NCBI RefSeq assembly: GCF_015644585.1
Contig: NZ_JADOBI010000003.1
Span: 186,001-250,000, forward strand
Direction: 5' to 3'
From: Rahnella laticis
Lineage (GTDB): Bacteria; Pseudomonadota; Gammaproteobacteria; Enterobacterales; Enterobacteriaceae
Length of the DNA stretch: 64,000 bases
The notes below the pieces were generated by a model that was not told the origin of the DNA, made no database searches, and worked only from the letters and a program-made list of their open reading frames with translations. Made by a program: the position numbers and the translations under genes. This document shows positions 1-32,351 of the stretch, in pieces. Within the stretch, counting starts at the first letter, position 1. Every line of letters begins with the position of its first letter.

Positions 1-30
1 ATGTTTAAAATCAAAAAACCATTGCCAGGC

Positions 31-121
31 CTATTATCCACAATTTCCATTGATCGTCAATTCCGATCAAGATCTTTTTATTGATAGCCACAAACTATCA
101 ATAAGACATTATTGATCGATG
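31..121 (-). promoter_or_regulatory. GATC-rich promoter module, copy A (leftward)
   Basis: Read on the minus strand, TTGACG (55-60) and GATAAT (33-38) form a sigma-70-like promoter with a 16-base spacer, pointing out of the window. Upstream is a perfect dyad, TTGATAG-N7-CTATCAA (81-101), and GATC sites start at 52, 65, 71 and 114. The first GATC overlaps the -35 box. The arrangement matches copy B at 7891-7981, including the 13-base spacing between the first two GATCs and 18 bases from the second GATC to GATAG. The dyad fits the OxyR dimer pattern ATAG-N7-CTAT. The gene it would drive lies left of base 1. Confidence 0.55.
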
Positions 122-901
122 CATCATTTATTATTTAAATATCACCCCTGTTATCTGCAACCTTTCCTTAAAATACCTTGATACTTGTTTACAAGAGCCA
201 GGTAGTCACAGGGAAAACAATTAACGGACTAACTTAAAACATGGCGAAATCATTAATAGAAGAGATAAAAAAAAAGCACATTTTTTTCTGCCAAATAAAA
301 AATTAATAATTATTACCTTAAAGGAGATCTCATTACCCCCACAAAAAAAGGATTAAAAGAATATTTACAAAACAGCCTATTCCCAGCAAGACTGACTTAA
401 TGGATTTAAGAAATAAATTAATTAGATACCATTTCAACCTACATGATACTTTCCCTGCCTGAACAACCAATTTTTACATGTCAACATGAAGACTGGACAG
501 GTATTTTTCAAAGAAAACCAGCCCGATAAATTCATAATTACCTGTCAGACTGGTTATTTTACTCACAGCATCTGGAGGGGAGGACTTATTGATAGCAGAC
601 CATGAGGGCACTAGGGGGGGGTAAAATAAGACACTCTTTAACGCCTTGATATTCTGTCAGGCAGCGCAGAAATGATTGATATGTTCAGTCATGGAGTTAT
701 TGATAATCAAAATGGAAACCCGTCAAGCTTCCTCAACGTAATATTAAATGTCCGGCAGCTTAACTGGGACATCGCAGATACGCCAGGCTCTTCCAAATAT
801 AGCACTATCACCGTCATAATTTGTATTACCTGCATACCACCTGATGTCGTGCCCCCGCCTCCTACAAGGGCAACAGGAAGTATGATCACGCCATCATTTA
901 T
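122..901. other. AT-rich intergenic region without a supported gene
   Basis: About 780 bases between promoter copy A and the LuxR-type gene. Short open frames exist (for example 672-905 on +), but they have no convincing ribosome binding site or recognisable product. A G-rich run (ggggggg) occurs near 615-621. I see nothing else that can be supported. Confidence 0.4.
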
Positions 902-1570
902 TTAATATTTACCGCCATCTTTCTCAACCCTGGTCGCGGTGGAATGTTGTGAAAAGGTACCGCATAAAAATGCATGCTGGCTCGAAACGCCTAACTGCTT
1001 TAGCAATAAAGTACGATGATTATAGACAGATTTAATCGGACAATTTTGCATGCGTGCCTGTTGGCTCTGATGCAGCCCGCATATCATTGACCAGAGAGCG
1101 TGCAAGCGAGGAGGTAACAGCTGGATTTCATGCTGCGCAACCGGTGTTAAGGTCGTCGTACCTTCCAGAATACTCCTGAGGGTATACTGCATGTCCTCAC
1201 AAATGAGCCGTGTAGGAACCATGTAGATATTATTCCCCCTGCCCTCGGTAAGCCCGGCAATACGGAGTAATATACTGGCGCATCTCGGCGGCATATCAGA
1301 AATGATAGCCACCCGCCCTTTGCCCATCTTCTTTGCATAAAAATCAACGAGGGACCTGAGAGAAGTAATTTGCTCCGACAGCGTGCCTCGCAAATACAAA
1401 ATTATCCCAGTAGGCATTTTCTCCGGCAAAATGACAGATTGAGTTTCTTTATAATGAGAAATAGAAGACACCAGACAGCTGAGTGCGGCGCGGCTGTAAT
1501 GACAAGTGTCTGTGATAAGGACATGTATACCTGACGGTGTCATGACTAATGTTGAATTATGCTGTTTCAT
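902..1570 (-). CDS. LuxR-type HTH transcriptional regulator of the fimbrial locus
   Basis: 222 aa. Residues ~150-210 have the spacing of a LuxR/FixJ helix-turn-helix (LPPRLHALW ... SVYNHRTLLLKQLGVSS), including the NHR and LKQLGV positions of the recognition helix. The N-terminal ~130 residues resemble the alpha/beta fold of an RcsB/FimZ-type receiver but show no clear phospho-acceptor aspartate, so phosphorylation is doubtful. The ATG at 1570 is preceded by a GAAGAA-type ribosome site. It lies downstream of and in the same direction as the tip-subunit gene, the place where fimbrial loci often keep such regulators. Control of this or a neighbouring fimbrial operon is inferred from position. 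Confidence 0.7.
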   Translation of the reverse strand: MKQHNSTLVMTPSGIHVLITDTCHYSRAALSCLVSSISHYKETQSVILPEKMPTGIILYLRGTLSEQITSLRSLVDFYAKKMGKGRVAIISDMPPRCASILLRIAGLTEGRGNNIYMVPTRLICEDMQYTLRSILEGTTTLTPVAQHEIQLLPPRLHALWSMICGLHQSQQARMQNCPIKSVYNHRTLLLKQLGVSSQHAFLCGTFSQHSTATRVEKDGGKY

Positions 1571-1588
1571 ATTTCTTCAATGCTGCGA

Positions 1589-1955
1589 TCATCCAGTTAT
1601 TCCAGGCTCTTTGTTAGAGATATAATCATCAACGCTGACCACGCCGAAGTATCCCTGATAGCTAATAGCAAAGAGATGAAGGTCTGCTTCAGTAATGCGC
1701 ACCACGCTGTGATGCCACCGTATTTGGGGAATAATCACGGCCTGACAGTAACCCCCCAACCTTGACCGTGTTGAATCCTATAAATATACCTGCCTGGCAG
1801 ATATCATGGCTAAGTGCGGCGATACCGACATAATGGTTTCCTGATAAGGCCATGCGTATGGCAGTGAGCCTGTTGTTTTGGCAGTACTGAATAATCACGA
1901 TGTGTGACATAACGGTGTGACAAAGGGGCCACCTGAAACGCCCACATTGCCACAC
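1589..1955 (-). pseudogene. Possible frameshifted second regulator gene
   Basis: Two leftward reading frames overlap here. The first (1955 to 1689, 88 aa) begins with a receiver-like stretch (SHIVIIQYCQNNRLTAIRMAL) similar in pattern to the N-termini of the LuxR-like proteins at 902-1570 and 50685-51269. The second frame, shifted by one base and open from about 1775 to the TGA at 1589-1591, also reads as protein-like (RITEADLHLFAISYQGYFG). One frameshift near 1700-1770 would join them. No HTH is visible in the joined product, so this may be a decayed remnant. Low confidence that either frame is translated. Confidence 0.3.
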
Positions 1956-1972
1956 GTGGTTTCAGGTGCACG

Positions 1973-3091
1973 TCAAGAGGTGCTGGGCGTGTAAGTGACG
2001 GTCAGGGTACCGAAATAATTACCGCGATACTTGGATGACAGCACAAATTCGGGCGTCGTGAAAGTCAGCGGAGCCGGGATGCAGACGTACACATCGGCGT
2101 AACCGGGCAGTAAGACATTGCGCGTGGCGACACCCGAGCCACGGGTGTCCAGGGTTATCGGTATACCGTTCGCCACCACCTGCGGCGAGCCCGTTACGGG
2201 GTTCACAAAGCTTACCTGGTAGTCAAGCCGCCCGGAAGGAACCGTCACATTGTATTGAAAAAGGGAAAACAGACCAGAATTCCTTCCTGTTGTGTCACCA
2301 TTACCAACAGAATCCTCAAAGAGCAGCGTCATGGAAGAACTCGTGGAGTCGTTGCCGTCGTAAAGGCACATGTCCAGCGTGTTACTCCCGCTGGCTCTGG
2401 TGTTGTTATCTGAGCCGGGCAGGTTCGACAGATTTAAGTTTACGCTCGGCGTGCTATCCGGAAACGCCGGGAAGTAGATTTGGGCCGAGGGCCCCTTAAC
2501 AGTCAGGGTAATGTTTGCCGTCCAGGTTTGACCCCGGTCGGTTTCTGCATTGGATGTCCCTGCTTTATTCTTTAGTGAGAGCCAGAGGGTGGCGGTCCAC
2601 GTGCCGGTCGTGGTCAGTTTGGCTAACTCGCTGTTCGGGATCCAGTATGTAAACGCTGCATAAACAGCCTCAGTACCTTTAAATCCATTCCAGGGCTCAT
2701 AGGAATAATCCGTATCGCTGCCCGCATAGCAGGAGCTCGAATACTTGCATCGGTTTGCCCTGACTGTTAGCTTCTGGGTTCTGCCCCTTGCGGCATTGGT
2801 GAACGTCAGCGTAATGGCACTTGCTGTTACGTTGGTGCCCCGGAAAATACTGCTCGTATTACACGCCCCATAGGTGGCGTCCGAGTAGCTCTGGCACACC
2901 AGCGAGTCATTGGCGTGGCTGGTGTCCGTGCTGCTGTCCCTGCTCACGAGGCCCTGCCAGATGGAGACGTAGGACGGCAGCGAGCCCATATCGAGCGTCT
3001 CGGAGACGGCAGTCGTTCTGGAAACGGCGCCCGCGCTACTCATGCTTCCTGCGACAAGTATGTATAAAATTAGAGTTATCACGGATTTCAA
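1973..3091 (-). CDS. Class 5 fimbrial tip subunit / initiator (CblD/CfaE-like)
   Basis: About 372 aa with an N-terminal hydrophobic signal segment (SVITLILYILVAG). The length, the cysteine pattern, and a C-terminal half with repeated beta-strand texture and the LDMCLYDG segment are those of the CblD/CfaE/CooD tip proteins of alternate chaperone-usher fimbriae. Such proteins start pilus assembly at the usher and act as the adhesin. It is the last structural gene of the operon, 13-40 bases after the usher stop. Start choice: the frame opens at a TTG at 3121 with no ribosome site. A second TTG at 3091 follows GGGAGA at good spacing and directly precedes the signal peptide, so I prefer it. Receptor unknown. 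Confidence 0.8.
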   Translation of the reverse strand: MKSVITLILYILVAGSMSSAGAVSRTTAVSETLDMGSLPSYVSIWQGLVSRDSSTDTSHANDSLVCQSYSDATYGACNTSSIFRGTNVTASAITLTFTNAARGRTQKLTVRANRCKYSSSCYAGSDTDYSYEPWNGFKGTEAVYAAFTYWIPNSELAKLTTTGTWTATLWLSLKNKAGTSNAETDRGQTWTANITLTVKGPSAQIYFPAFPDSTPSVNLNLSNLPGSDNNTRASGSNTLDMCLYDGNDSTSSSMTLLFEDSVGNGDTTGRNSGLFSLFQYNVTVPSGRLDYQVSFVNPVTGSPQVVANGIPITLDTRGSGVATRNVLLPGYADVYVCIPAPLTFTTPEFVLSSKYRGNYFGTLTVTYTPSTS

Positions 3092-3133
3092 GGTGAGTCT
3101 CCCGGCGCTTTCCGCCTGCAAAAAATAGTTAGA

Positions 3134-5866
3134 TTAATGTTCAAGTGAGTGCTGCTGGCCGTTCACCGCCACGGGTTTAGCATCGCGCCGTACGCCCGCA
3201 GACATCAGTTCGACCTGCCGTTGTTCGGCAGGCGGCAGGCGTGCCATGTCGGTGTCCTGGCACGACGTTGCCCCCAGGTAGCGGATCACGTCCCGCACCG
3301 CGCGCACCTTAATCCTGCACTGCCAAAAATGGTCATCCCTCATCAGGTAGAGCGTGCTGATTTTCCGGTCAGTTTCCATCGTGAATCCGCCGTTCCCGAC
3401 CGGCGTCCATGCCGCCACGTTAAGCGGTATGCCGCCCTCAAGTGGCCGGCGTTGTTCGTCCAGCAGCCGGCCCAGCCATAGGTAGCGCGTACTGACCTCC
3501 ACCGTTTTACTCAGCACTTTCCCGGGCGGCATAAAGATACTGCCCCGCCCGGTACCCTTGCGTATTTCACTGCTGACCCCGCCCGGCGTGGCCAGCGCCT
3601 CGTTGACGCTGTAGGTCGTTTTCTCATAGCCCGGCATTAGGAATATGCCCCGCCCGCCGCCGCCGATGTCCCTTCTTCCACCGCTGCCGACCGCCACAGT
3701 CACCCGAGCACGGCTGTCATCCTCATTAGCGTCTACCTTCACCGCCAGCGCGGAGGACGCTCCGCCGGCGGCCCAGCCCCCCAGCGCGACCCCGTCACTG
3801 TCGGCAATCAGAGATGAGCTGTAGGAGCCGCTGCTGCCGGTGGTATGCACGTTCTGTTGCGTATTCCACGCGTCGCTCACGGCCAGCGAGCCGCTGCCGT
3901 ACTGACTGTCCCCGCGCACTTGCGCCAAGGCATTGACGGTGTCGGTATTGATACCGTTCAGCGAAGCGCTCACCGAGTCACCCGGAAGGTTTTCGCTGTA
4001 GCGCGTGTAGCTCGCGTTATACCCAAGCTGGCTTTCGCCGGACCGGCTTTGCTGCCAGCTGGCGCCGGCCGATGCCGCGCTGCGTCCGCCGCTATCATTT
4101 CGGCTAACGCCCGACAGGGAAAAGCTGAGGTAAAAGCCTTTATCCATGCCGTTATAACCGCTGGACCGGCTGGCGAAGGCGCTCAGGCCGACGCCGACGT
4201 TAAGGTTGCTGAGCACAAAGGTGCGATTTAGCCCGGTCTGCCAGGTCTGACTGCGCGAGCGGGACTGGTATACCTGGTCCCAAGGCGCCCCGGCGCTGAC
4301 CTCTTCGCTGTCTGCCGACAGGTCCCGACGGTAAACGTAACGCCCCTCATTACTGCTCAGCGAGTAACCCAGCGTGCCGTTCCAGCCGGCCAGGGGGACG
4401 GAAAACATCGCGTTGGTATTGGTGTAGCACCCGGTAAATCCGTAAGCGCGCGCTTGCTGCATGTTGCAGTCCTCCGAGGTCAGGCTGGTCCGGTAAACGC
4501 TCAGGGAGAACCCGTCGTTGTAGGAAACTTGCTGCGTGCTGCCGCGGGAGCCGTCACTGCCCTGAAGCCAGCTCACGCGCGTGGTGAGCTGGCCGTCCAG
4601 CGGACCGGAGTTGAATCCGTGAGACCAGTCGAGTGCCGACTCCACATACCGTGCAGAACTGAAGAGTGCCACGCCCGTCGTCAGGGCGGCGGACTCGGTC
4701 AGGGGAAGCCTGCCTCCGGCATGCACCACGTAATGCTCTGCCGCCACGCTGTTTGTGGTTAGGGCATTCTGCTCATCGGGAACGCCCGCCTGCAAAAACC
4801 ACTGAAAGTCATTGCCCCAGCCCTGCCCCTGGCGGCTGTAAAGCTGAGTTTCAGTCCTGACCAGCTGGTTATTCTCATAAATATTCAGGGTGAGCGTGTA
4901 GCTCCCCGCCGGGAAGCTGCGGGTATCCAGCGCCTGTGCACCCGCCTTAAGGTAGAAGGAGGTAAGAAGCTGGTTATTCCGGTAGGCGTCAACGCGAGCG
5001 TCACGGGTAAGGAGTACGTTAACGGGCGTACCTGCGGATACGGTCTCGCGGTTAACCCAGGCAAGCGTCGAACCGGCCCGCACGCCGCGGATACGACCCA
5101 GGGGCAGCTGCGTCAGGGCAATGTTCCCCCCCGCATTGGTATAGATATCCTGTGAGTTCATCAGCCCGGCCTGCAGGTAAATGCGTTTCAGGAAATCCTG
5201 ACGGAAATAGGCGTTGGGGGCTTCAATTTGCTGAGCCGTTCCCTCGCCTGAGCGCTGAGCAAGCCAGTTCCAGTCAACCCCGAGGTAGCTGCTGTCGCCC
5301 ACGCCCAGCGCGCCATTCCCCTGCACCGACAGGGACTGATAGCGGCCGCTGGTTGCAAAATTAACGTTCTGCTGATGCACCAGCGCGTTCTTTATCTCAG
5401 GGCTTGCCTGATAATATCTGGCGTCTTCGCGGGTGAGAGGAGCGTACTGCTCGCCCAGAAAGAGGTGGATAACCGCGTTATTTTCATCGTATATCAGCCC
5501 CAGGCTGTCGGTTTTCAGGTAGTCACACCCGACCCTGTGGCCGTTGGTGCTGCAGGATAGGTCGCCGTTTCGCCTAAGCGCCTGTCGGATTTTACTTTCC
5601 AGCATGACGTTCAGCGCCGGGGCGTCGCCGTATAGCTTTTTGACCGCGGCCGAGAGCACGTCTGGCTGTAAAAAAGTCACGTTTTCCAGGTCAACATGCA
5701 CGCGTACAGTCCCAAGGGGCTGACCGTACAGGTCAACATCAGCAACAATGTCCTGGCCACGTGCAAGCTCCTCAAACCCGTCCGGCACGCGGACGCTGGC
5801 ATAAGCTGGAGGCAGAAGCGAGCACAACATGATGATGATGCGGGCTGTAGGGCTGGACTTTCGCAC
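3134..5866 (-). CDS. Outer membrane fimbrial usher (CblC/CfaC/TcfC-like)
   Basis: 910 aa, the expected size of the usher of CS1/CFA/I-type pili. GTG start with AAGAGA upstream, then a short signal peptide (MLCSLLPPAYA). The mature N-terminus begins VRVPDGFEEL. The central region (~residues 180-650) is rich in alternating Gly/Ser/Tyr strands typical of the 24-strand beta barrel, and the C-terminal ~200 residues form the periplasmic domains. It would accept chaperone-subunit complexes and pass the fibre through the outer membrane. It lies between pilin and tip genes, as in cblBACD and cfaABCE. No disruption seen. Confidence 0.88.
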   Translation of the reverse strand: MRKSSPTARIIIMLCSLLPPAYASVRVPDGFEELARGQDIVADVDLYGQPLGTVRVHVDLENVTFLQPDVLSAAVKKLYGDAPALNVMLESKIRQALRRNGDLSCSTNGHRVGCDYLKTDSLGLIYDENNAVIHLFLGEQYAPLTREDARYYQASPEIKNALVHQQNVNFATSGRYQSLSVQGNGALGVGDSSYLGVDWNWLAQRSGEGTAQQIEAPNAYFRQDFLKRIYLQAGLMNSQDIYTNAGGNIALTQLPLGRIRGVRAGSTLAWVNRETVSAGTPVNVLLTRDARVDAYRNNQLLTSFYLKAGAQALDTRSFPAGSYTLTLNIYENNQLVRTETQLYSRQGQGWGNDFQWFLQAGVPDEQNALTTNSVAAEHYVVHAGGRLPLTESAALTTGVALFSSARYVESALDWSHGFNSGPLDGQLTTRVSWLQGSDGSRGSTQQVSYNDGFSLSVYRTSLTSEDCNMQQARAYGFTGCYTNTNAMFSVPLAGWNGTLGYSLSSNEGRYVYRRDLSADSEEVSAGAPWDQVYQSRSRSQTWQTGLNRTFVLSNLNVGVGLSAFASRSSGYNGMDKGFYLSFSLSGVSRNDSGGRSAASAGASWQQSRSGESQLGYNASYTRYSENLPGDSVSASLNGINTDTVNALAQVRGDSQYGSGSLAVSDAWNTQQNVHTTGSSGSYSSSLIADSDGVALGGWAAGGASSALAVKVDANEDDSRARVTVAVGSGGRRDIGGGGRGIFLMPGYEKTTYSVNEALATPGGVSSEIRKGTGRGSIFMPPGKVLSKTVEVSTRYLWLGRLLDEQRRPLEGGIPLNVAAWTPVGNGGFTMETDRKISTLYLMRDDHFWQCRIKVRAVRDVIRYLGATSCQDTDMARLPPAEQRQVELMSAGVRRDAKPVAVNGQQHSLEH

Positions 5867-5941
5867 GTGAGTTCTCTTGTATTATTTTGGTCGACGGTGC
5901 TGAAGCCGGCAGAGGAATTTCTCTGCCGGGAAGTCATAAGA

Positions 5942-6433
5942 TTAGTTGGAGGTAGCCTGAGCGAGCACCAGGCCGACGGTACCGGTGTAGGTACCCGCCG
6001 TCTTCAAAGCCCCTGCGGTGGTCTGGGAAATTTCCAAAGGTACGGCAAGCGACCCGGTGGTGTTACCGTTCGGAAAGTAGGTGGCGTAGGTGAGGGCCGT
6101 AGCGGTGGTGGTGAGGGTCTTACCATCTAACTTCACCGTAAGCGGCACCTGAGTTGTCCCGGAGGCAAGATTGACCGCGCTCGCCAGGCTGATGTTAAGA
6201 TTTGCCGTGGTTGAGTTGGTCCACAGTTTCACCTGCTGAGAAATAGGCTGCAGCCCCGTCACCACGTTATACTCCATGGTCAGCGCGTCCGGCAGCGCTG
6301 AGCCGTCGGCAAGGGTCATGTCAACCGTCGGGTCAACCACCGCCGTGACGGTAATGTTGCGCTGTACGGCCTGGGTAGCGAAGGCGCTCAGAAGAAGAGC
6401 GGAGAGCAGTGTGGTTTTAAAAATGTGCTTCAT
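5942..6433 (-). CDS. CS1-type major fimbrial subunit (CblA/CfaB-like)
   Basis: 163 aa with a clear signal peptide (TLLSALLLSAFATQA, cleavage before VQRNITV). The mature protein has the class 5 pilin pattern: N-terminal donor strand with VDPTVDMTLADG, then VTGLQPISQQVKLWTNS and a C-terminal GTYTGTVGLVLAQ. Such pilins polymerise by donor-strand exchange into the fimbrial shaft. ATG at 6433 follows AAGGAAAC. It sits between chaperone and usher; the 75-base gap to the usher start could hold a processing or attenuation signal, but I cannot identify one. Confidence 0.88.
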   Translation of the reverse strand: MKHIFKTTLLSALLLSAFATQAVQRNITVTAVVDPTVDMTLADGSALPDALTMEYNVVTGLQPISQQVKLWTNSTTANLNISLASAVNLASGTTQVPLTVKLDGKTLTTTATALTYATYFPNGNTTGSLAVPLEISQTTAGALKTAGTYTGTVGLVLAQATSN

Positions 6434-6482
6434 GATGTTTCCTTTTCTCGCTTACATTATTCCATTCGACATAAATGGAATT

Positions 6483-7217
6483 TCAGTTTTTCAGTTTTTC
6501 CAACGCTATTTCCTGCAGATGATCATTTATCCCGTCCAGATATTTTGCCCGGTATGTTTCACCGGCGTGAAACGTGACTCCTGCAGCCGCTTTTTTCATA
6601 CCCGGATAGACCGTCATGATATTTTTCTGCCAGCGGCAGTACCCTGTCGCCGAGCATATGCCTATTTCTCGCAGGGGAAGCCGCACGGTGCCGGTATTAA
6701 TCATCTGACCGGAATTTTCCTGATACTGCAGCGCTACTCTTGTGGTCTGCGGAACCACGTGTATAAGTGCGCCCCAGATAATATTCACCCCGACATTCCC
6801 CGTGCTCTTTTTAATGGCATCGTCACCGGGGGTTTCGTTAAAAATTCGCTCATCAACCGCCTCAAAATAAGCGCGCCAGGTCGTTTCTTTTTCAGGGGGG
6901 AGCATGGATATGACTCTCACCACCCGCTCACTGCCGGACGCAAGGGCGATTTTCGTCGGCACCACGGCGACGCCCGCCGCGTCGCTGATGTCAGCATCAA
7001 TCTCTTTTTCTTCTGGTGTACCGGGATTGATGATTTGTTTTAACGTCACCCTGACAAACTGGACTTCATCGCTTTTCGAAATGAGCTTAAGTTGAGCGGC
7101 CCCTTTTTGACCTAGAGTCAGCTCCATGGGATAGACATACATGCCGGCATTGGCCATCGACATGCTGCACACAAACAGCGTCCCAACCACCACACGAATT
7201 AACAGGTTAAACATCAT
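6483..7217 (-). CDS. Periplasmic fimbrial chaperone (CblB/CfaA-like)
   Basis: 244 aa. Signal peptide (IRVVVGTLFVCSMSMANA) followed by two immunoglobulin-like domains. Domain 1 has MYVYPMELTLGQKGAAQLKLISKS and RVVRVISMLPPEKETTWR, which fits the subunit-binding G1-strand region of alternate-family chaperones. Domain 2 contains GVNIIWGALIHVVPQ. It would hold pilin and tip subunits in the periplasm and deliver them to the usher. First of the four core structural genes, 49 bases upstream of the pilin. Two ATGs in tandem open the frame. Confidence 0.85.
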   Translation of the reverse strand: MMFNLLIRVVVGTLFVCSMSMANAGMYVYPMELTLGQKGAAQLKLISKSDEVQFVRVTLKQIINPGTPEEKEIDADISDAAGVAVVPTKIALASGSERVVRVISMLPPEKETTWRAYFEAVDERIFNETPGDDAIKKSTGNVGVNIIWGALIHVVPQTTRVALQYQENSGQMINTGTVRLPLREIGICSATGYCRWQKNIMTVYPGMKKAAAGVTFHAGETYRAKYLDGINDHLQEIALEKLKN

Positions 7218-7443
7218 ATTTCATTCTCTTAATTAATAATAAACGCCGTGATGAAAGGAAATAAAACGCTCTGCCCTGCCCCTTTAAAAATAAAATAAGT
7301 CGTCAAAAAACCTGTTCTGATATGCTTTTCCCGGCAATGACGAATTACTACAGAAGAGAGGCTATCTATGAGCACCCTATTTTTACACGAGCGCATCCGC
7401 TGAGTTATTAAAAAAAATCAACCCAGTAAAACCCTCAGGTATA

Positions 7444-7779
7444 TCACTCATCCTTCTCATGGGATGAATGCATGGATATCGCATATTTTTTTGATAAATA
7501 ACAGCGAAGGGCATGATTAATGTCATGCAGCAGCGCCAGCATCCCAGAAAAATAAGCACTCCCGTCATCATGCTCCAGCAGGCACTCTATTAATTTCCTC
7601 TGAATATATTTCAGCTCTGGCTCCCCAGGGGGGTCATCACAAATGTAATTAAGAAAATTAATGATTTGCCCACACTCAATGAATCCATAGAGTGAGATTT
7701 TTTCCTTCAGGACGCTCCTTGTCAAAAAGGACTGATGGCGGCAGTTGCGGGAAGATTCATTTCTTCTGTGTTTGGCCAT
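7444..7779 (-). CDS. Unknown small protein at the head of the fimbrial operon
   Basis: About 111 aa, basic N-terminus (MAKHRRNESSRNCRHQSF), mostly helical-looking middle and a His/acidic tail (SMHSSHEKDE). No signal peptide or membrane span. A strong ribosome site (GGAGGGG) precedes the tandem ATGs at 7782/7779, which supports translation. It lies between the GATC-rich promoter (copy B) and the chaperone gene, 226 bases upstream of the latter, so it is probably first in the fimbrial operon. Fimbrial operons often begin with a small regulator, which is a reasonable guess, but I recognise no family. Confidence 0.55.
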   Translation of the reverse strand: MAKHRRNESSRNCRHQSFLTRSVLKEKISLYGFIECGQIINFLNYICDDPPGEPELKYIQRKLIECLLEHDDGSAYFSGMLALLHDINHALRCYLSKKYAISMHSSHEKDE

Positions 7780-7890
7780 CATCACCCCTCCGCATTTGAA
7801 ATCACCTCAACCTTATTTCAGGTCAAAACCCATACTGACATTCAGTATTTGATTCATTATGAGAAATTTCCCATGTCCTATTTTCGAAGC

Positions 7891-7981
7891 ATTATGCACA
7901 GATATCCATTGATCGTCAAACCCGATCATAAAATTTATTTTGATAGCTAACAACTATCAAAAAGCCCGCCATCGATCGATC
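7891..7981 (-). promoter_or_regulatory. GATC-rich promoter module, copy B (fimbrial operon)
   Basis: On the minus strand TTGACG (7914-7919) and CATAAT (7891-7896) are separated by exactly 17 bases and point at the fimbrial operon. GATC sites begin at 7911, 7924, 7974 and 7978; the first overlaps the -35 hexamer. A perfect dyad TTGATAG-N7-CTATCAA (7940-7960) is centred about 65 bases upstream of the expected start site. Dam sites around an ATAG-N7-CTAT dyad are the hallmark of OxyR/Dam phase-variable promoters (agn43, gtr, opvAB). OxyR as the binder is inferred; another LysR-type protein is possible. Confidence 0.6.
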
Positions 7982-7989
7982 GCCACAGA

Positions 7990-9680
7990 AACGCAACAAA
8001 CCAACCAACAAATTAACATACTGATTAAAAACAAAATTCCCCTCCTAAGTTAATAAAAAGTGAATATACTGCGCAAAAAATACGAACCATGTGATTCACC
8101 TAACCCAATAGAGTCCATTTTTTGAGAATTTCCTTTGATATTATTTGTAAACCCTGAAGCTTATAAATTTTGCGATATCATATTCTGATATATTCCTCAC
8201 TTGCAGACAGTAAAGCTTAATTAATGATTAATAAGTCTTACAAACAGCTTAATGATATTCACCTTGCTTATTACCTAAAGTGTGAGACATTGCCAATAAA
8301 TCGATTTTTGGCTTTCATCGCGATCAGATAACCCCACCGCTGCCCGTCGGTGATATCGCGCAGAAAAATAGATGTTTAAAATCAACCGGTGAAAACCTAT
8401 TAAAAGGCGCTCATCGATTGAGCCTTACTGACATTTAGATGGGGTGAACTGGCGCTGTGGCGCAAGTAAGAAGCACTCAAGCGTTTTCGCGTGGGAAATC
8501 GTTTCTCTGAGCTATCTTGACTCTCAATACACAGATGCTGATACGCTTCTTTCGCCGCACATTGCTTTCCGTGCAGGGGGGATGAATTTTTTATGAAGCT
8601 CCTGTTCTGTTGTAAGGCTTATCTCTCACCCCCATCGAAACAGTAAAGTGGCTTCCGCCGATGGCGTTTATGCACAAAACATGCCATGCGAGCGGCTAAA
8701 TAAGAAAGTGAAGACGCTTATTCCACCGCGAACCTGAGCGTGTTATTGGCAGTTTTCATTGGGAAAGGAAATCGGAAGGTGGTGAGGCTGAGAAAGAGCA
8801 AAACTGACAGAAAGTGGAACACGGTTTTAACCCATATTCACTGGTCAAAACGGCGAGGTACCGGATTAGAAAACCGGTAGGCTGGCACATCATGCGGCTT
8901 GAATACGATGCGCAGAACTGTGAGATTGTGGCCTGAAATCGAAGATATCTTTCATCAGGCGTCCGCGTTCAGTCACTCGCCGGACCTGCGATACTCCTTC
9001 CCGTGCCGCCGTATCGTAGATACCACTACGATCAAGTGATCCACTTGTATTTTCGGGTATTTTTGAACCCGGCTGTCAGCGTACGTTGGTCAAGTCCATG
9101 AAGAAAAGCCAAGGCGCGGCGATGCGAATTATGTCTGAACCGTTTAAAGCGGGGCTCATTTGGACGGAGGGCTCGATTTGTTTCACGTAACGTTGATGCC
9201 TGGGCTATACCCATTTTCCCGGATTCGGCACTGACAGCGAAAGCCCGCTTTCTGGCAAGCGCGAGGAAAGCATGCTAATTTACTCTGGCATCCTGCTCAG
9301 GACTACGATACCCGCTGGGTCTTCAGGCAATTAATGTAGCGTTATCAGCGAAAGTAAAGCCGTCCCCTTTGCGGTCAAATACAGGCATGACAACCCATGA
9401 AACATGTTTTAGATGTTTGACACGGTGAGGCAATCCGATGACTTTCAGCAAAGCCTGCATCACAATGACATATGACATCACGCCGTATTACGACCAAACG
9501 CGATCTCATCAATACGGGGGGTTGACGCCGAATGAACCCGAACGATTATTCCTCAAAAACCCTACCCCGGTGGTCCGTTTTCAACGACCACGACGGTCCG
9601 CCCCATTCAACAACCCCGTATTGCGTTAAAGGCTAAACGAGAGCCGGAAACATGATAACCTCCCTGCCTCCGGCCTTAAG
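7990..9680. other. Degenerate DNA without intact genes
   Basis: Roughly 1.7 kb with no open frame above about 63 codons on either strand. Patches of protein-like sequence with frequent stops (for example around 8850-9020 and 9040-9230 on +) suggest old insertion-sequence or gene remnants, but I cannot name a family. An imperfect inverted repeat (caatacgggg at 9510-9519 against ccccgtattg at 9614-9623) may mark the end of a small element. This decayed block separates the fimbrial operon from the sugar operon. Confidence 0.4.
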
Positions 9681-10373
9681 TCAGACGGGTATCTTTTGCC
9701 TCTCCTCCTGGGCCAGGGCGGCTTGCTCTTGGAGAATATCGATGGCTTCCTTATAGGACATATCTTTGCAGAACAGGCCTGCCGTACCGAGAACAAACAT
9801 ATCCACATCCGCCCCCAGCATTTTTACCACCTGCGGCGAAATGGCCCCATCGATGGCTATTTTGGCGTGACTCTGCTGCTGTCTCAGCAGCGCTCTTAAC
9901 CGTTGCACTTTCCCGACAGAAGATGCAATGAAGGGCTGGCCAGCAAACCCCGGGTTAACAGACATCACCATGACGATATCCACGACGTCTAGCACTTCTT
10001 CCAGCATACTAAGGGATGTTCCCGGATTAATCGCCACCCCCGCTTTGATGCCCCGGCTGCGTATACTGCTTAGCGTGCGGTGAAGATGAACGGGGGCTTC
10101 GGCATGGACATAAATAACGCTGCACCCCAAATTGGCAAAACGTTCTATGTAAGGATCGGGGTTGGTCACCATCAAGTGAACATCGTAAGGAATCCTCGCC
10201 AGCTTAGATACCGCTTTGATGTCCTCCGGGCCGAGGGCAAAGTTGGGAACAAAATGTCCGTCCATCACGTCAATATGGAACATGGCCGCCCCGGCATTCT
10301 CTAACTGAGCGATCTCTTCACTCAGCCGGGCGAAGTCCACGCACATTAATGACGGGCAAAATTCCACGTTCAT
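9681..10373 (-). CDS. alsE: D-allulose-6-phosphate 3-epimerase-like (RPE family)
   Basis: 230 aa, full length for the ribulose-phosphate 3-epimerase TIM barrel. Visible motifs: FCPSLMCVDF at the N-terminus, the metal/catalytic segment HIDVMDGHFVPN (~34-45), DVHLMV (~65), VNPGFAGQPF (~139-148) and IAIDGAIS (~173-180). It is nearer AlsE/SgcE-type paralogues than housekeeping Rpe because of its context with an RpiB-like isomerase and a PTS permease. Proposed step: D-allulose-6-P to D-fructose-6-P in the cytosol. Its ATG overlaps the stop of the upstream isomerase (ATGA-type), indicating translational coupling. Last gene of the operon. The sugar specificity is inferred. Confidence 0.72.
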   Translation of the reverse strand: MNVEFCPSLMCVDFARLSEEIAQLENAGAAMFHIDVMDGHFVPNFALGPEDIKAVSKLARIPYDVHLMVTNPDPYIERFANLGCSVIYVHAEAPVHLHRTLSSIRSRGIKAGVAINPGTSLSMLEEVLDVVDIVMVMSVNPGFAGQPFIASSVGKVQRLRALLRQQQSHAKIAIDGAISPQVVKMLGADVDMFVLGTAGLFCKDMSYKEAIDILQEQAALAQEERQKIPV

Positions 10374-10816
10374 GGCTGTTCCTCCTCAATCGCTGCGATC
10401 ATTTCCACTCTTTTCTGGTGACGGTCCCCTTCAAATTTGGCATCCAGCCACGCGTCGACAATCATTTTGGCCAGCGCTGAGCCAATGACGCGGGAACCGA
10501 AAGAAAGCACATTCGTATTATTATGCTCGCGGGATAACTTAGCCGAGTAGGGTTCACTGCATACCACTGCCCGGATACCTTTCACTTTATTGGCAGCAAT
10601 GGCGATACCCACACCTGAACCGCAAAAAACAATACCCAGATCCGCTTCTCCTGAGACAACGGCCTCAGCGACCGCTTTGCCATAGATGGGATAATCAGTA
10701 CGGGTGTCTTCATGTGCGCCTTTATCAATGACGGTAATACCGCGTGCAACAAGATGCTCTGTAATGACCGGTTTGAGAATAATCCCGACGTGATCGCAGC
10801 CAATAGCAATTTTCAT
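10370..10816 (-). CDS. rpiB: RpiB/LacAB-family sugar-phosphate isomerase
   Basis: 148 aa from the ATG at 10816, which follows GAGAGA; an in-frame ATG at 10828 has weaker support. RpiB signatures are clear: IAIGCDHVGI at the N-terminus, DYPIYGKAVAEAV (~45), the active-site cysteine region FCGSGVGIAIAANK (~66-80) and EHNNTNVLSFGSR (~98-110). RpiB-type enzymes interconvert ribose-5-P/ribulose-5-P, and several also isomerise allose-6-P to allulose-6-P. Next to an AlsE-like epimerase and a PTS EIICB, the second reaction makes a complete route to fructose-6-P. Start and stop overlap with its neighbour supports one operon. Confidence 0.78.
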   Translation of the reverse strand: MKIAIGCDHVGIILKPVITEHLVARGITVIDKGAHEDTRTDYPIYGKAVAEAVVSGEADLGIVFCGSGVGIAIAANKVKGIRAVVCSEPYSAKLSREHNNTNVLSFGSRVIGSALAKMIVDAWLDAKFEGDRHQKRVEMIAAIEEEQP

Positions 10817-10881
10817 GTTCTCTCTCATATTGTCAGATTAAATTAAGATGTTTGTTAACGGGAGCCGCCGCTCCCTTTGAG

Positions 10882-12495
10882 TTAATGCGTACCCTGTAAG
10901 CTATCTTCCAGGTTGGATTTGATCAGGGTGACGTGTGGCCCGTAGATGACCTGCACGCCTTTGCCTTTCTGGATCACGCCCTTTGCGCCGGAGCTTTTCA
11001 GCATGTCTCCATCCACTTTATTTTCATCAAACACGGTGACCCGCAGGCGAGTGGCACAACAATCAAGGTCCGAAATATTGGTCATTCCCCCCAGCCCCGC
11101 CAGGATCAACGCTGCGATTTCGTCGTCTCCGGCTACGTGATTGTCGACAACGGATGGCTTATTGCGGGCTTCGAGATCTTTTCGGGTATAAAGCTTTGTC
11201 TCCTGGTTATCGTCCTCTTCGCGCCCCGGCGTCTTAAAATCAAACCGGGTGATCAGATAGCGGAAGCTGAAGTAGTAAATCGGGAACAGGGGCAGACCAA
11301 TCAGGACAGCGTTAATCCAATGGCTTTTAGCATTGCCCTGCATGACGCCAAAGAGGACAAAGTCAATCAGGCTGCCTGAAAACGTCTGGCCCACCCCCAC
11401 GTTGAAAATGTGGCAAAACATGAAAGACAAGCCGGCCAAGATACAGTGCAGTACATACAGCAGGGGGGCGGCGAACAGGAAGGAAAACTCAATCGGTTCG
11501 GTTATTCCGGTGAGCACCGCGGTCAGTGCGGCGGACAGCAGCAGGCCCAGAACCAGTTTGCGTTTTTCTGGCCGTGCGGTGTGATAGATAGCCAGCGCCG
11601 CGCCGGGGATCCCAAACAGATAGAACGGGAATTTACCGGCCATGAAGCGGGTCGCTTCAACGGAAAACTCATGGGTATTTGGACTGGCTAACTCTGCAAA
11701 GAAAATGTTTTGCGCGCCTGATACGGTCACGCCATCAATAATGGCGGTGCCCCCCAGCCCCGTCTGCCAGAATGGCATATAAAAGACGTGATGCAGGCCA
11801 AAGGGAATGAGGGCCCGCTCAATCACACCATAGATAAATGTTCCGGCGTAGCCCGCACTGTTGACCAGCGCGCCCAGGTGCAAAATGCCATTCTGAATAG
11901 CAGGCCAGATAAAGAACATCAAAATGCCGACCCCCAGGTACGTAATCGCCGAGACGATAGGGATAAACCGCGTCCCGCCGAAAAAGGAGAACGTGGCAGG
12001 CAGTTCAATCCGGTAAAAACGATTGTGCAATGCCGCGACGCCAAGCCCTGCAATCACGCCGCCAAATACGCCCATCTGAAGGGAGTTGATACCCAGAGTC
12101 ATCCCCAGCGAACCGTCGGGCAATGCCCCTTCGGCCAACAGCCCGCGGATCTCGAGCATGGCATTGATGGTCGCGTGCATCACGAAAAAACCGATGGCGC
12201 CGGAAATGGCGGCCACTTCTTTTTCTTTCTTAGCCATTCCCATCGCGACACCAATGGCAAAGAGCACCGGCAGGTTGGAGAAAATAATACTTCCGGCACT
12301 TTTCATTACGGTGAGTAAAGCGTGAAGAATTGTGCCATCCCCCAGAAAAGACTGGAGTCCGTATGAGTCAATGGTCGTCTGATTGGTAAAGGAAGCGCCA
12401 ATGCCCAACAGCAAACCGGCCACTGGCAATAAAGCGATGGGGAGCATAAAAGAGCGCCCTATACGCTGAAGAATTCCAAAAATTGTTGTTTTCAT
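10882..12495 (-). CDS. PTS EIICB sugar permease, glucose/maltose (MalX-like) family
   Basis: 537 aa. Residues ~1-400 are the membrane EIIC domain with about ten hydrophobic spans and the conserved GITEPIEFSFLF and GLHHVFYMPFW segments. Residues ~455-537 form EIIB, with the phospho-cysteine in DLDCCATRLRV (Cys480 by alignment with PtsG CxTRLR; Cys479 beside it is unusual). No EIIA is encoded here, so the general glucose EIIA (Crr) probably donates phosphate, as for other permeases of this family. It would import and 6-phosphorylate a hexose. The downstream isomerase and epimerase suggest D-allose or a similar epimer. First gene of the leftward operon. Confidence 0.82.
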   Translation of the reverse strand: MKTTIFGILQRIGRSFMLPIALLPVAGLLLGIGASFTNQTTIDSYGLQSFLGDGTILHALLTVMKSAGSIIFSNLPVLFAIGVAMGMAKKEKEVAAISGAIGFFVMHATINAMLEIRGLLAEGALPDGSLGMTLGINSLQMGVFGGVIAGLGVAALHNRFYRIELPATFSFFGGTRFIPIVSAITYLGVGILMFFIWPAIQNGILHLGALVNSAGYAGTFIYGVIERALIPFGLHHVFYMPFWQTGLGGTAIIDGVTVSGAQNIFFAELASPNTHEFSVEATRFMAGKFPFYLFGIPGAALAIYHTARPEKRKLVLGLLLSAALTAVLTGITEPIEFSFLFAAPLLYVLHCILAGLSFMFCHIFNVGVGQTFSGSLIDFVLFGVMQGNAKSHWINAVLIGLPLFPIYYFSFRYLITRFDFKTPGREEDDNQETKLYTRKDLEARNKPSVVDNHVAGDDEIAALILAGLGGMTNISDLDCCATRLRVTVFDENKVDGDMLKSSGAKGVIQKGKGVQVIYGPHVTLIKSNLEDSLQGTH

Positions 12496-19995: not shown

Positions 19996-20210
19996 TTTCA
20001 TCTCTTCACGGCTGCATCGTTCAAGCATGGTGGCCTGGTGTTGGCGTACTAATCTGAAGCAATAAAGGTTAACTGAGGGACGATTTGTTTCTGGCATCCC
20101 TGCAGTGATGGCGTAGCAAGCCCCACAGCTGTAATACGCCGCGATGCAAAGCCATTTTTCGTCATCAATGGAAGCCAAGGATAACCAGAGAGATTGCTGA
20201 AAAGATAATC

Positions 20211-20254
20211 GTTTTTATAGATCGATAATTCGATTTCGATCGTTATCGCCAATC
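20211..20254. repeat. GATCG-rich motif, left copy flanking the alpA-yfjIJ module
   Basis: The segment atagatcgataattcgatt followed by tcgatcgttatcgcc (about 20218-20251) shares GA(A)TTTC(G)ATCGTTATC with the segment at 25258-25306, on the other side of the YfjJ-AlpA-YfjI block. It lies 30 bases downstream of the YfjJ-like stop. It may be a replication or attachment sequence of the element, or chance similarity of GATC-rich DNA. Confidence 0.3.
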
Positions 20255-20286
20255 AATGTACTGGTATGCGAGCAGGCAGCGGGTTT

Positions 20287-32288: not shown

Positions 32289-32351
32289 TCGATTCCGAGT
32301 CCGGCACCATATTTAAAGAAACCAGCCTGATGGCTGGTTTTTTGCTTTCTG
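32289..32351 (+). repeat. tRNA-Phe 3'-end remnant with terminator, copy 1 (att scar)
   Basis: GATTCCGAGTCCGG-CACCA (32291-32309) matches the T-arm/acceptor 3' end of enterobacterial tRNA-Phe (GATTCCGAGTCCGGGCACCA) with one G missing. It is followed by ACCAGC/GCTGGT (32321-32338) and T6, the tRNA terminator. No tRNA body precedes it. It is the kind of partial duplication left by tRNA-targeting integrases and marks the right end of an island. Confidence 0.7.

Follow-up and report, generated by a model that had tools for sequence, protein, structure and literature searches.

A probable gtr-type OxyR/Dam promoter switch before a class 5 fimbrial operon of Rahnella laticis, with a twin before a second fimbrial operon

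The promoter region of a class 5 fimbrial operon in Rahnella laticis combines several GATC sites with an OxyR-like dyad, which raises the question of whether these fimbriae are switched on and off through OxyR and Dam methylation, as an earlier note on this DNA had proposed. The locus lies in a stretch of 64,000 nucleotides (NZ_JADOBI010000003.1, positions 186,001-250,000; assembly GCF_015644585.1), called the window below, and coordinates are those of the window unless another locus is named. The literature covered describes phase variation by OxyR and Dam at a few loci (agn43, gtr and opvAB). The note knew of no such control for class 5 fimbriae, and none was found for class 5 or chaperone-usher fimbriae among the matches listed in a search of titles and abstract openings of the open-licence PMC literature. 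Effects of OxyR on fimbriae are reported in S. Typhi (PMC12502779). For this and the other papers cited, our statements refer to the parts of each text that were covered.

The element before the operon occupies 7908-7980 on the minus strand and scores 51.6 bits against R1, a sequence-only profile described below. Its promoter, located by promoter comparison, is TTGACG-N17-CATAAT on the minus strand (-35 box at 7914-7919, -10 box at 7891-7896), with 10 of 12 matches and a 17-bp spacer. It runs from 7919 to 7891 and faces the operon, just as the note had read it. The four GATC sites that had been named, one over the -35 box and three more, are indeed present at 7911, 7924, 7974 and 7978. GATC-4 (7911-7914, +36 from the dyad centre) has base 7914 in common with the -35 box, GATC-3 lies at 7924-7927 (+23) and GATC-2 at 7974-7977 (-27), and an extra GATC is found at 7978-7981 (-31), where GATC-1 of P22 is at -40. 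The perfect dyad ATAGnTnnnAnCTAT in 7891-7981 (minus strand) can be read as TTGATAG-N7-CTATCAA at 7940-7960, centred on 7950; it lies about 66 bp upstream of the expected, unmapped start near 7884, compared with the 65 bp given before. Three OxyR-like sites can be placed on the minus strand: a central site B (ATAGTTGTTAGCTAT, 7943-7957) with 10 of 10 consensus bases, a downstream site C (ATCGGGTTTGACGAT, 7912-7926) with 6 of 10, overlapped by GATC-3 and GATC-4, and a weak upstream site A (TCTGTGGCGATCGAT, 7975-7989) with 5 of 10, a score of at least 5 being reached by shuffled flanks in about half of the trials. The low site scores of this copy may partly result from the -35 sequence TTGACG being written into site C. 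The order along the minus strand is thus upstream GATCGATC, the dyad TTGATAG-N7-CTATCAA, and TGATCG-N6-ACGATC overlapping the TTGACG-N17-CATAAT promoter. A search of Rfam with window 1-12000 gave no match.

The assignment of the operon to class 5 holds on Pfam evidence, as it encodes a Fimbrial_CS1 subunit, a TcfC-type usher and a CblD-type tip protein, the set of the class 5 (alpha) fimbriae. All genes are on the minus strand. The first open frame after the switch, orf113 (7444-7785), has no family match and is followed by a CooB-like chaperone (6483-7217; best NCBIfam model TcfA, below its cut-off), a CooA-like CS1-type major subunit (5942-6433; PF04449), a CooC/TcfC-type usher (3134-5866; PF17271 and PF16967), a CooD/CblD-type tip protein (1973-3121; PF07434) and a 222-amino-acid protein (902-1570) without a Pfam or NCBIfam match. 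Besides itself, orf113 has one distant homologue in the protein database. In Pantoea stewartii, a 56-amino-acid piece 43 % identical to orf113 lies between the element and cooB, and a frame 38 % identical to the 222-amino-acid protein follows cooD, so that both occupy matching places. The stretch 7100-7850 showed nothing that resembled a terminator, and a second promoter-like site lies within orf113 (7725-7697). In E. coli genomes neither the 401-bp promoter region nor cooBA had a match.

How much of this arrangement could be expected by chance depends on which part is considered. The ATAG-N7-CTAT dyad alone is not rare, with two occurrences in the window against 0.73 expected and 20 in the genome. 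Clusters of at least four GATC sites within 71 bp occur twice in the window (7911-7981 and 52-117), and at least two such clusters were obtained in 3.8 % of 2000 random placements of the window's 202 sites. Neither the dyad alone nor four GATCs in 71 bp alone is strong evidence; the full spacing is stronger. When the whole layout was written as a pattern of 24 fixed bases, drawn from both window copies and from the Pantoea and Ag1 relatives, exactly two exact matches were found in the window, while 100 shuffles of the window contained none even with up to three mismatches. As the window, Ag1 and Pantoea copies served to design the pattern, the fit of those copies is partly circular, and a family-wide test with a reversed control is therefore fairer.

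The second exact match (52-100, same strand as the first) had been overlooked in the earlier note. It belongs to a twin element at 49-120 (minus strand, 56.7 bits), with TTGACG at 55-60 and GATAAT at 33-38 as the -35 and -10 boxes on the minus strand, separated by a 16-bp spacer. The promoter is common to both elements in the aligned 121-bp regions. The twin precedes a FimA-chaperone-usher operon just outside the window (4990-11741 of locus L005): its centre is 350 bp before a FimA-like subunit, behind which come a chaperone of PapD type, a PapC-type usher and more subunits, the usher being one of 12 PF00577 ushers in the genome. The operons behind the two elements encode different types of fimbriae. 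On one side both operons are flanked by a tRNA-Phe gene (L005 649-724) with a neighbouring tyrosine integrase gene (920-2176), on the other by a sequence (window 32289-32309) that repeats the 3' end of the tRNA imperfectly. This arrangement is suggestive of an island about 43.6 kb long. The same island contains a weaker third element (20206-20266, minus strand, 30 bits) before a 110-amino-acid frame and a family 2 glycosyltransferase; its central site scores 7 of 10 and it has no upstream GATC. Small regulators near putatively switched adhesin operons (L005 3912-4433 and L116 4262-4804, both minus strand) resemble TviA/EcpR models, below the cut-offs.

The closest known counterpart is gtr of P22 and Salmonella (PMC2909390, PMC3688519). 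Relative to the dyad centre, GATC sites start at -40, -27, +24 and +37 in P22, at -31, -27, +23 and +36 in the window element, and at -26, +17, +23 and +36 in the twin. Shared with gtr are a perfect central OxyR site, the upstream GATC at -27, GATC-3 and GATC-4 with a spacing of 13 bp over site C and the -35 box, and a promoter downstream of site C. The gtr -35 box is described as overlapped by GATC-4 and site C (PMC2909390), as is the case here. The cargo differs, being O-antigen glucosylation in gtr and fimbriae in the window, GATC-1 is displaced by 9 bp, and the B-to-C spacing is 31 bp from centre to centre and not 32. The consensus scores of sites A, B and C are 8, 10 and 8 in P22 and 5, 10 and 6 in the window, whose outer sites are thus weaker; they are 6, 9 and 6 in the twin, 7, 9 and 7 in Enterobacter sp. 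Ag1, 5, 10 and 4 in P. stewartii and Pantoea sp., and 6, 9 and 7 in P. agglomerans. GATC-4 is absent from the P. stewartii copies. Of the features that define a gtr-type switch, the putative central site available to two alternative partners is intact (site B, 10 of 10), the GATC pair 13 bp apart lies over the -35 box and a site C of only 6 of 10, and on the upstream side GATC-2 is in place while GATC-1 is displaced and site A is weak at 5 of 10. Of the gtr contexts tested, one tolerated the loss of GATC-1 and another did not (PMC3688519). Both proteins of the switch are encoded in the genome: OxyR is 89 % identical to E. coli OxyR, with one change in residues 1-60 and both redox cysteines kept, and Dam, matched at one place in the genome, is 71 % identical to that of E. 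coli.

Other Dam-dependent systems resemble the element less. The agn43 (flu) control region of E. coli belongs to the same profile family and has a GATC pair at +24 and +37, but it carries a GATC inside the central site (+5) and none upstream; with offsets of +5, +24 and +37 against -31, -27, +23 and +36, an agn43-type layout was rejected. OxyR represses agn43 (PMC3350482). By its sequence, then, the layout is gtr-type rather than agn43-type, two alternative OxyR sites having the central site in common. As described, opvAB of Salmonella likewise has four GATCs and combines perfect OxyR sites with weaker GATC-bearing ones, but it has four OxyR sites and determines O-antigen chain length (PMC3350482, PMC12902445). 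The std operon of Salmonella, also by description, is a fimbrial operon with GATC methylation and a LysR-type protein, differing in that the protein is HdfR and the GATCs are two (PMC3264584). The pap-type switch (Lrp/PapI/Dam) gives Dam-dependent fimbrial phase variation of the kind proposed here; its GATC boxes are separated by 102 bp, and it uses a PapI-like protein (PMC2909390). The GATC spacings of 4, 50 and 13 bp led to rejection of a pap-type layout, and none of the six proteins scanned had a PapI-like Pfam match.

Beyond the two own copies, a DNA search with the whole element in 295 family genomes gave short, weak matches (20 of the 295 at E ≤ 0.01), and for this reason the spaced pattern, and then the profile, were used. 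With up to three mismatches of 24, the core pattern was present in 124 of 392 sampled genomes of the family, from 68 of 154 genera, compared with one genome (G163) for the reversed-pattern control. In a sample of the order it occurred in 14 of 394 genomes, 11 within the family and three outside, and with a spacer one base longer in 26 of 246 genomes, where the control matched none. The exact pattern was not found in viral contigs. BLAST against phages yielded weak matches at E up to 10, P22 gtr not being among the best 20 of 67 that were listed, and with a consensus query there was no match at E 0.1, P22 gtr included.

Positions that the pattern leaves free provide evidence on which protein reads the element. 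In 50 thinned elements the free OxyR consensus bases of the central site are enriched (T in 28 and A in 31), as are those of the downstream site (T in 40, p 4e-11; A in 38, p 4e-9). Two other free columns, 31 (T 84 %, adjoining the downstream site) and 22 (A 72 %), are as conserved and are not named by the OxyR consensus. On the upstream side, which the search pattern did not contain, 37 of 49 elements carry a GATC at the mirrored position against 0.75 expected, and the inner bases of an OxyR site, A (89 %) and T (67-68 %), usually come before it. The enrichment of an upstream OxyR-like site points to three sites, A-B-C, which is the layout described for gtr (PMC2909390). Site A scores 7 or 8 in 34 of 49 thinned elements, which places the window copy, with 5, at the low end. 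The profile R1 was built from 38 elements of other genomes, none from this one; Ag1 was included, so the fit of Ag1 is partly circular, which is not the case for the matches to P22 gtr and agn43. In 41 kb of P22 the best sites were all in the gtr control region (29.6, 29.6, 15.5 and 15.1 bits; top E 2.5e-8), the best site outside gtr reaching 7.0 bits, and in 2.5 kb around E. coli flu the agn43 control region scored 29.9 bits. Both loci are reported to be controlled by OxyR and Dam (PMC2909390, PMC3350482). The reading of the element as an OxyR/Dam switch thus gains support from comparison, as its motif family holds P22 gtr and E. coli agn43 and is enriched in OxyR-consensus bases and an upstream OxyR-like site.

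The genes near the element were called at 80 loci sampled from the matches listed (64 with at most two mismatches and 16 hand-picked with three; not a census), one of them, L160, from the R. laticis genome itself, by sequence searches with window proteins and a few locus representatives at E ≤ 1e-4. In raw counts that include close relatives, chaperone-usher or class 5 genes were within 4 kb of the element at 13 of the 80 loci, autotransporters were nearby at eight, and small lipoproteins, an inner-membrane protein or a relaxase at 36. The remaining 23 loci had none of these three classes; at six of these a small regulator or EAL query gave a match. Among four annotated E. coli matches examined, three were beside relaxase genes and one beside agn43. 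We think it somewhat probable that the Enterobacteriaceae share the gtr-type OxyR/Dam switch as a portable epigenetic cassette, present in about one-third of the sampled species before many unrelated surface genes, and that its two copies here put two fimbriae of one island under twin switches. The surface genes behind this proposed cassette would encode autotransporters, fimbriae of class 5 and of a type-1-like kind, small lipoproteins carried on elements with a relaxase, and small regulators at the head of adhesin operons.

Several individual loci were also observed. A large class of elements (L114, L118-L120 and others; L195-L197 in E. coli) has a relaxase gene on one side and, on the other, small genes for membrane proteins, lipoproteins or hypothetical proteins. 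L160 (C10:55384-55432) is a strong element of 56.6 bits between a relaxase gene and a small-lipoprotein-like frame. Judged by eye, related GATC-rich elements lie within about 1 kb of fliF-like genes in this genome (L191, C19:16146-16192) and in another (L171), and a partial element lies between two phage-tail-like genes (L190, C1:403879-403927). At L105, L106 and L128 the element separates a FimA-type operon from a divergent EAL-domain gene, and a single switch could therefore control both.

The element precedes class 5 operons elsewhere as well: on plasmids of Pantoea stewartii and Pantoea sp. JZ29, with a further plasmid, DC283, among the matches listed, in Enterobacter sp. Ag1, and in two congeners, where the intervening gene is LuxR-type by eye. 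In P. agglomerans it is located between class 5 genes and a LuxR-type gene. Where matched, CooB of these relatives is 44-55 % identical to that of the window. The link is not universal, since a protein search of named genomes yielded six class 5 loci, and five of them (L036, L038-L041) lacked the element within the stretches examined, Ag1 alone having it.

The element is real and conserved, and its sequence most likely represents a gtr-type OxyR/Dam switch in a new setting, given the twin, the family-wide matches, the gtr geometry, the matches of R1 and the presence of OxyR and Dam genes. From the whole analysis we consider it likely (probability about 0.74) that 7880-7981 is a gtr-type promoter that switches the class 5 operon on and off heritably through OxyR binding versus Dam methylation. 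By analogy with gtr (PMC2909390), OxyR bound to the central site and the downstream one would lie over the -35 box, turn the promoter off and keep GATC-3 and GATC-4 unmethylated. OxyR on the upstream and central sites would instead activate the promoter and hold it on, keeping the upstream GATCs unmethylated and leaving GATC-3 and GATC-4 methylated. Methylated GATCs would block rebinding of OxyR, and we propose that each state would thereby be inherited by daughter cells until replication permits a change. The neighbouring fimbrial operon would be controlled in the same manner by the twin element.

Three other explanations were weighed against this switch. Dyads of the form T-N11-A are common to LysR-type proteins, and a LysR-type regulator other than OxyR might read the dyad together with Dam. 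The genome offers many such relatives, with 85 matches to OxyR at E ≤ 0.001, and the two conserved free columns are left unexplained by the OxyR consensus. There is also a published precedent, as methylation of two GATCs blocks HdfR at the std fimbrial operon of Salmonella (PMC3264584). We nevertheless regard another regulator as unlikely: the dyad agrees with the OxyR consensus at 10 of 10 bases, the inner bases of OxyR sites are enriched, and the element family includes two loci published as OxyR-controlled. It is similarly doubtful that OxyR regulates this promoter in the ordinary way, by activation or repression and with no heritable states, the outer sites having become too weak to sustain bistability. 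Sites A and C are weaker than in gtr, and OxyR acts on fim of Salmonella Typhi in a paper from whose covered text the terms 'GATC' and 'methylation' are absent (PMC12502779). However, the GATC offsets are nearly unchanged in relatives and in the twin, and some gtr operons tolerate loss of GATC-1 (PMC3688519).

Chance, or a relic in which a promoter coincides with GATCs and a dyad, would be compatible with the fact that neither the dyad nor the GATC cluster is very rare by itself. It is made very improbable by the 24-base pattern, which matches exactly twice in 64 kb and never in the shuffles, and by the family-wide occurrence against the reversed-pattern control.

If the gtr-type reading is true, OxyR/Dam switches also drive chaperone-usher fimbriae, and cell-to-cell variation of adhesins could exceed what the classical pap and fim cases suggest. 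The sequence signature is directly testable in existing long-read methylation data of many species. In R. laticis the twin elements would likely let genetically identical cells differ in the fibres that they display, and the two switches, if independent, would provide up to four surface states.
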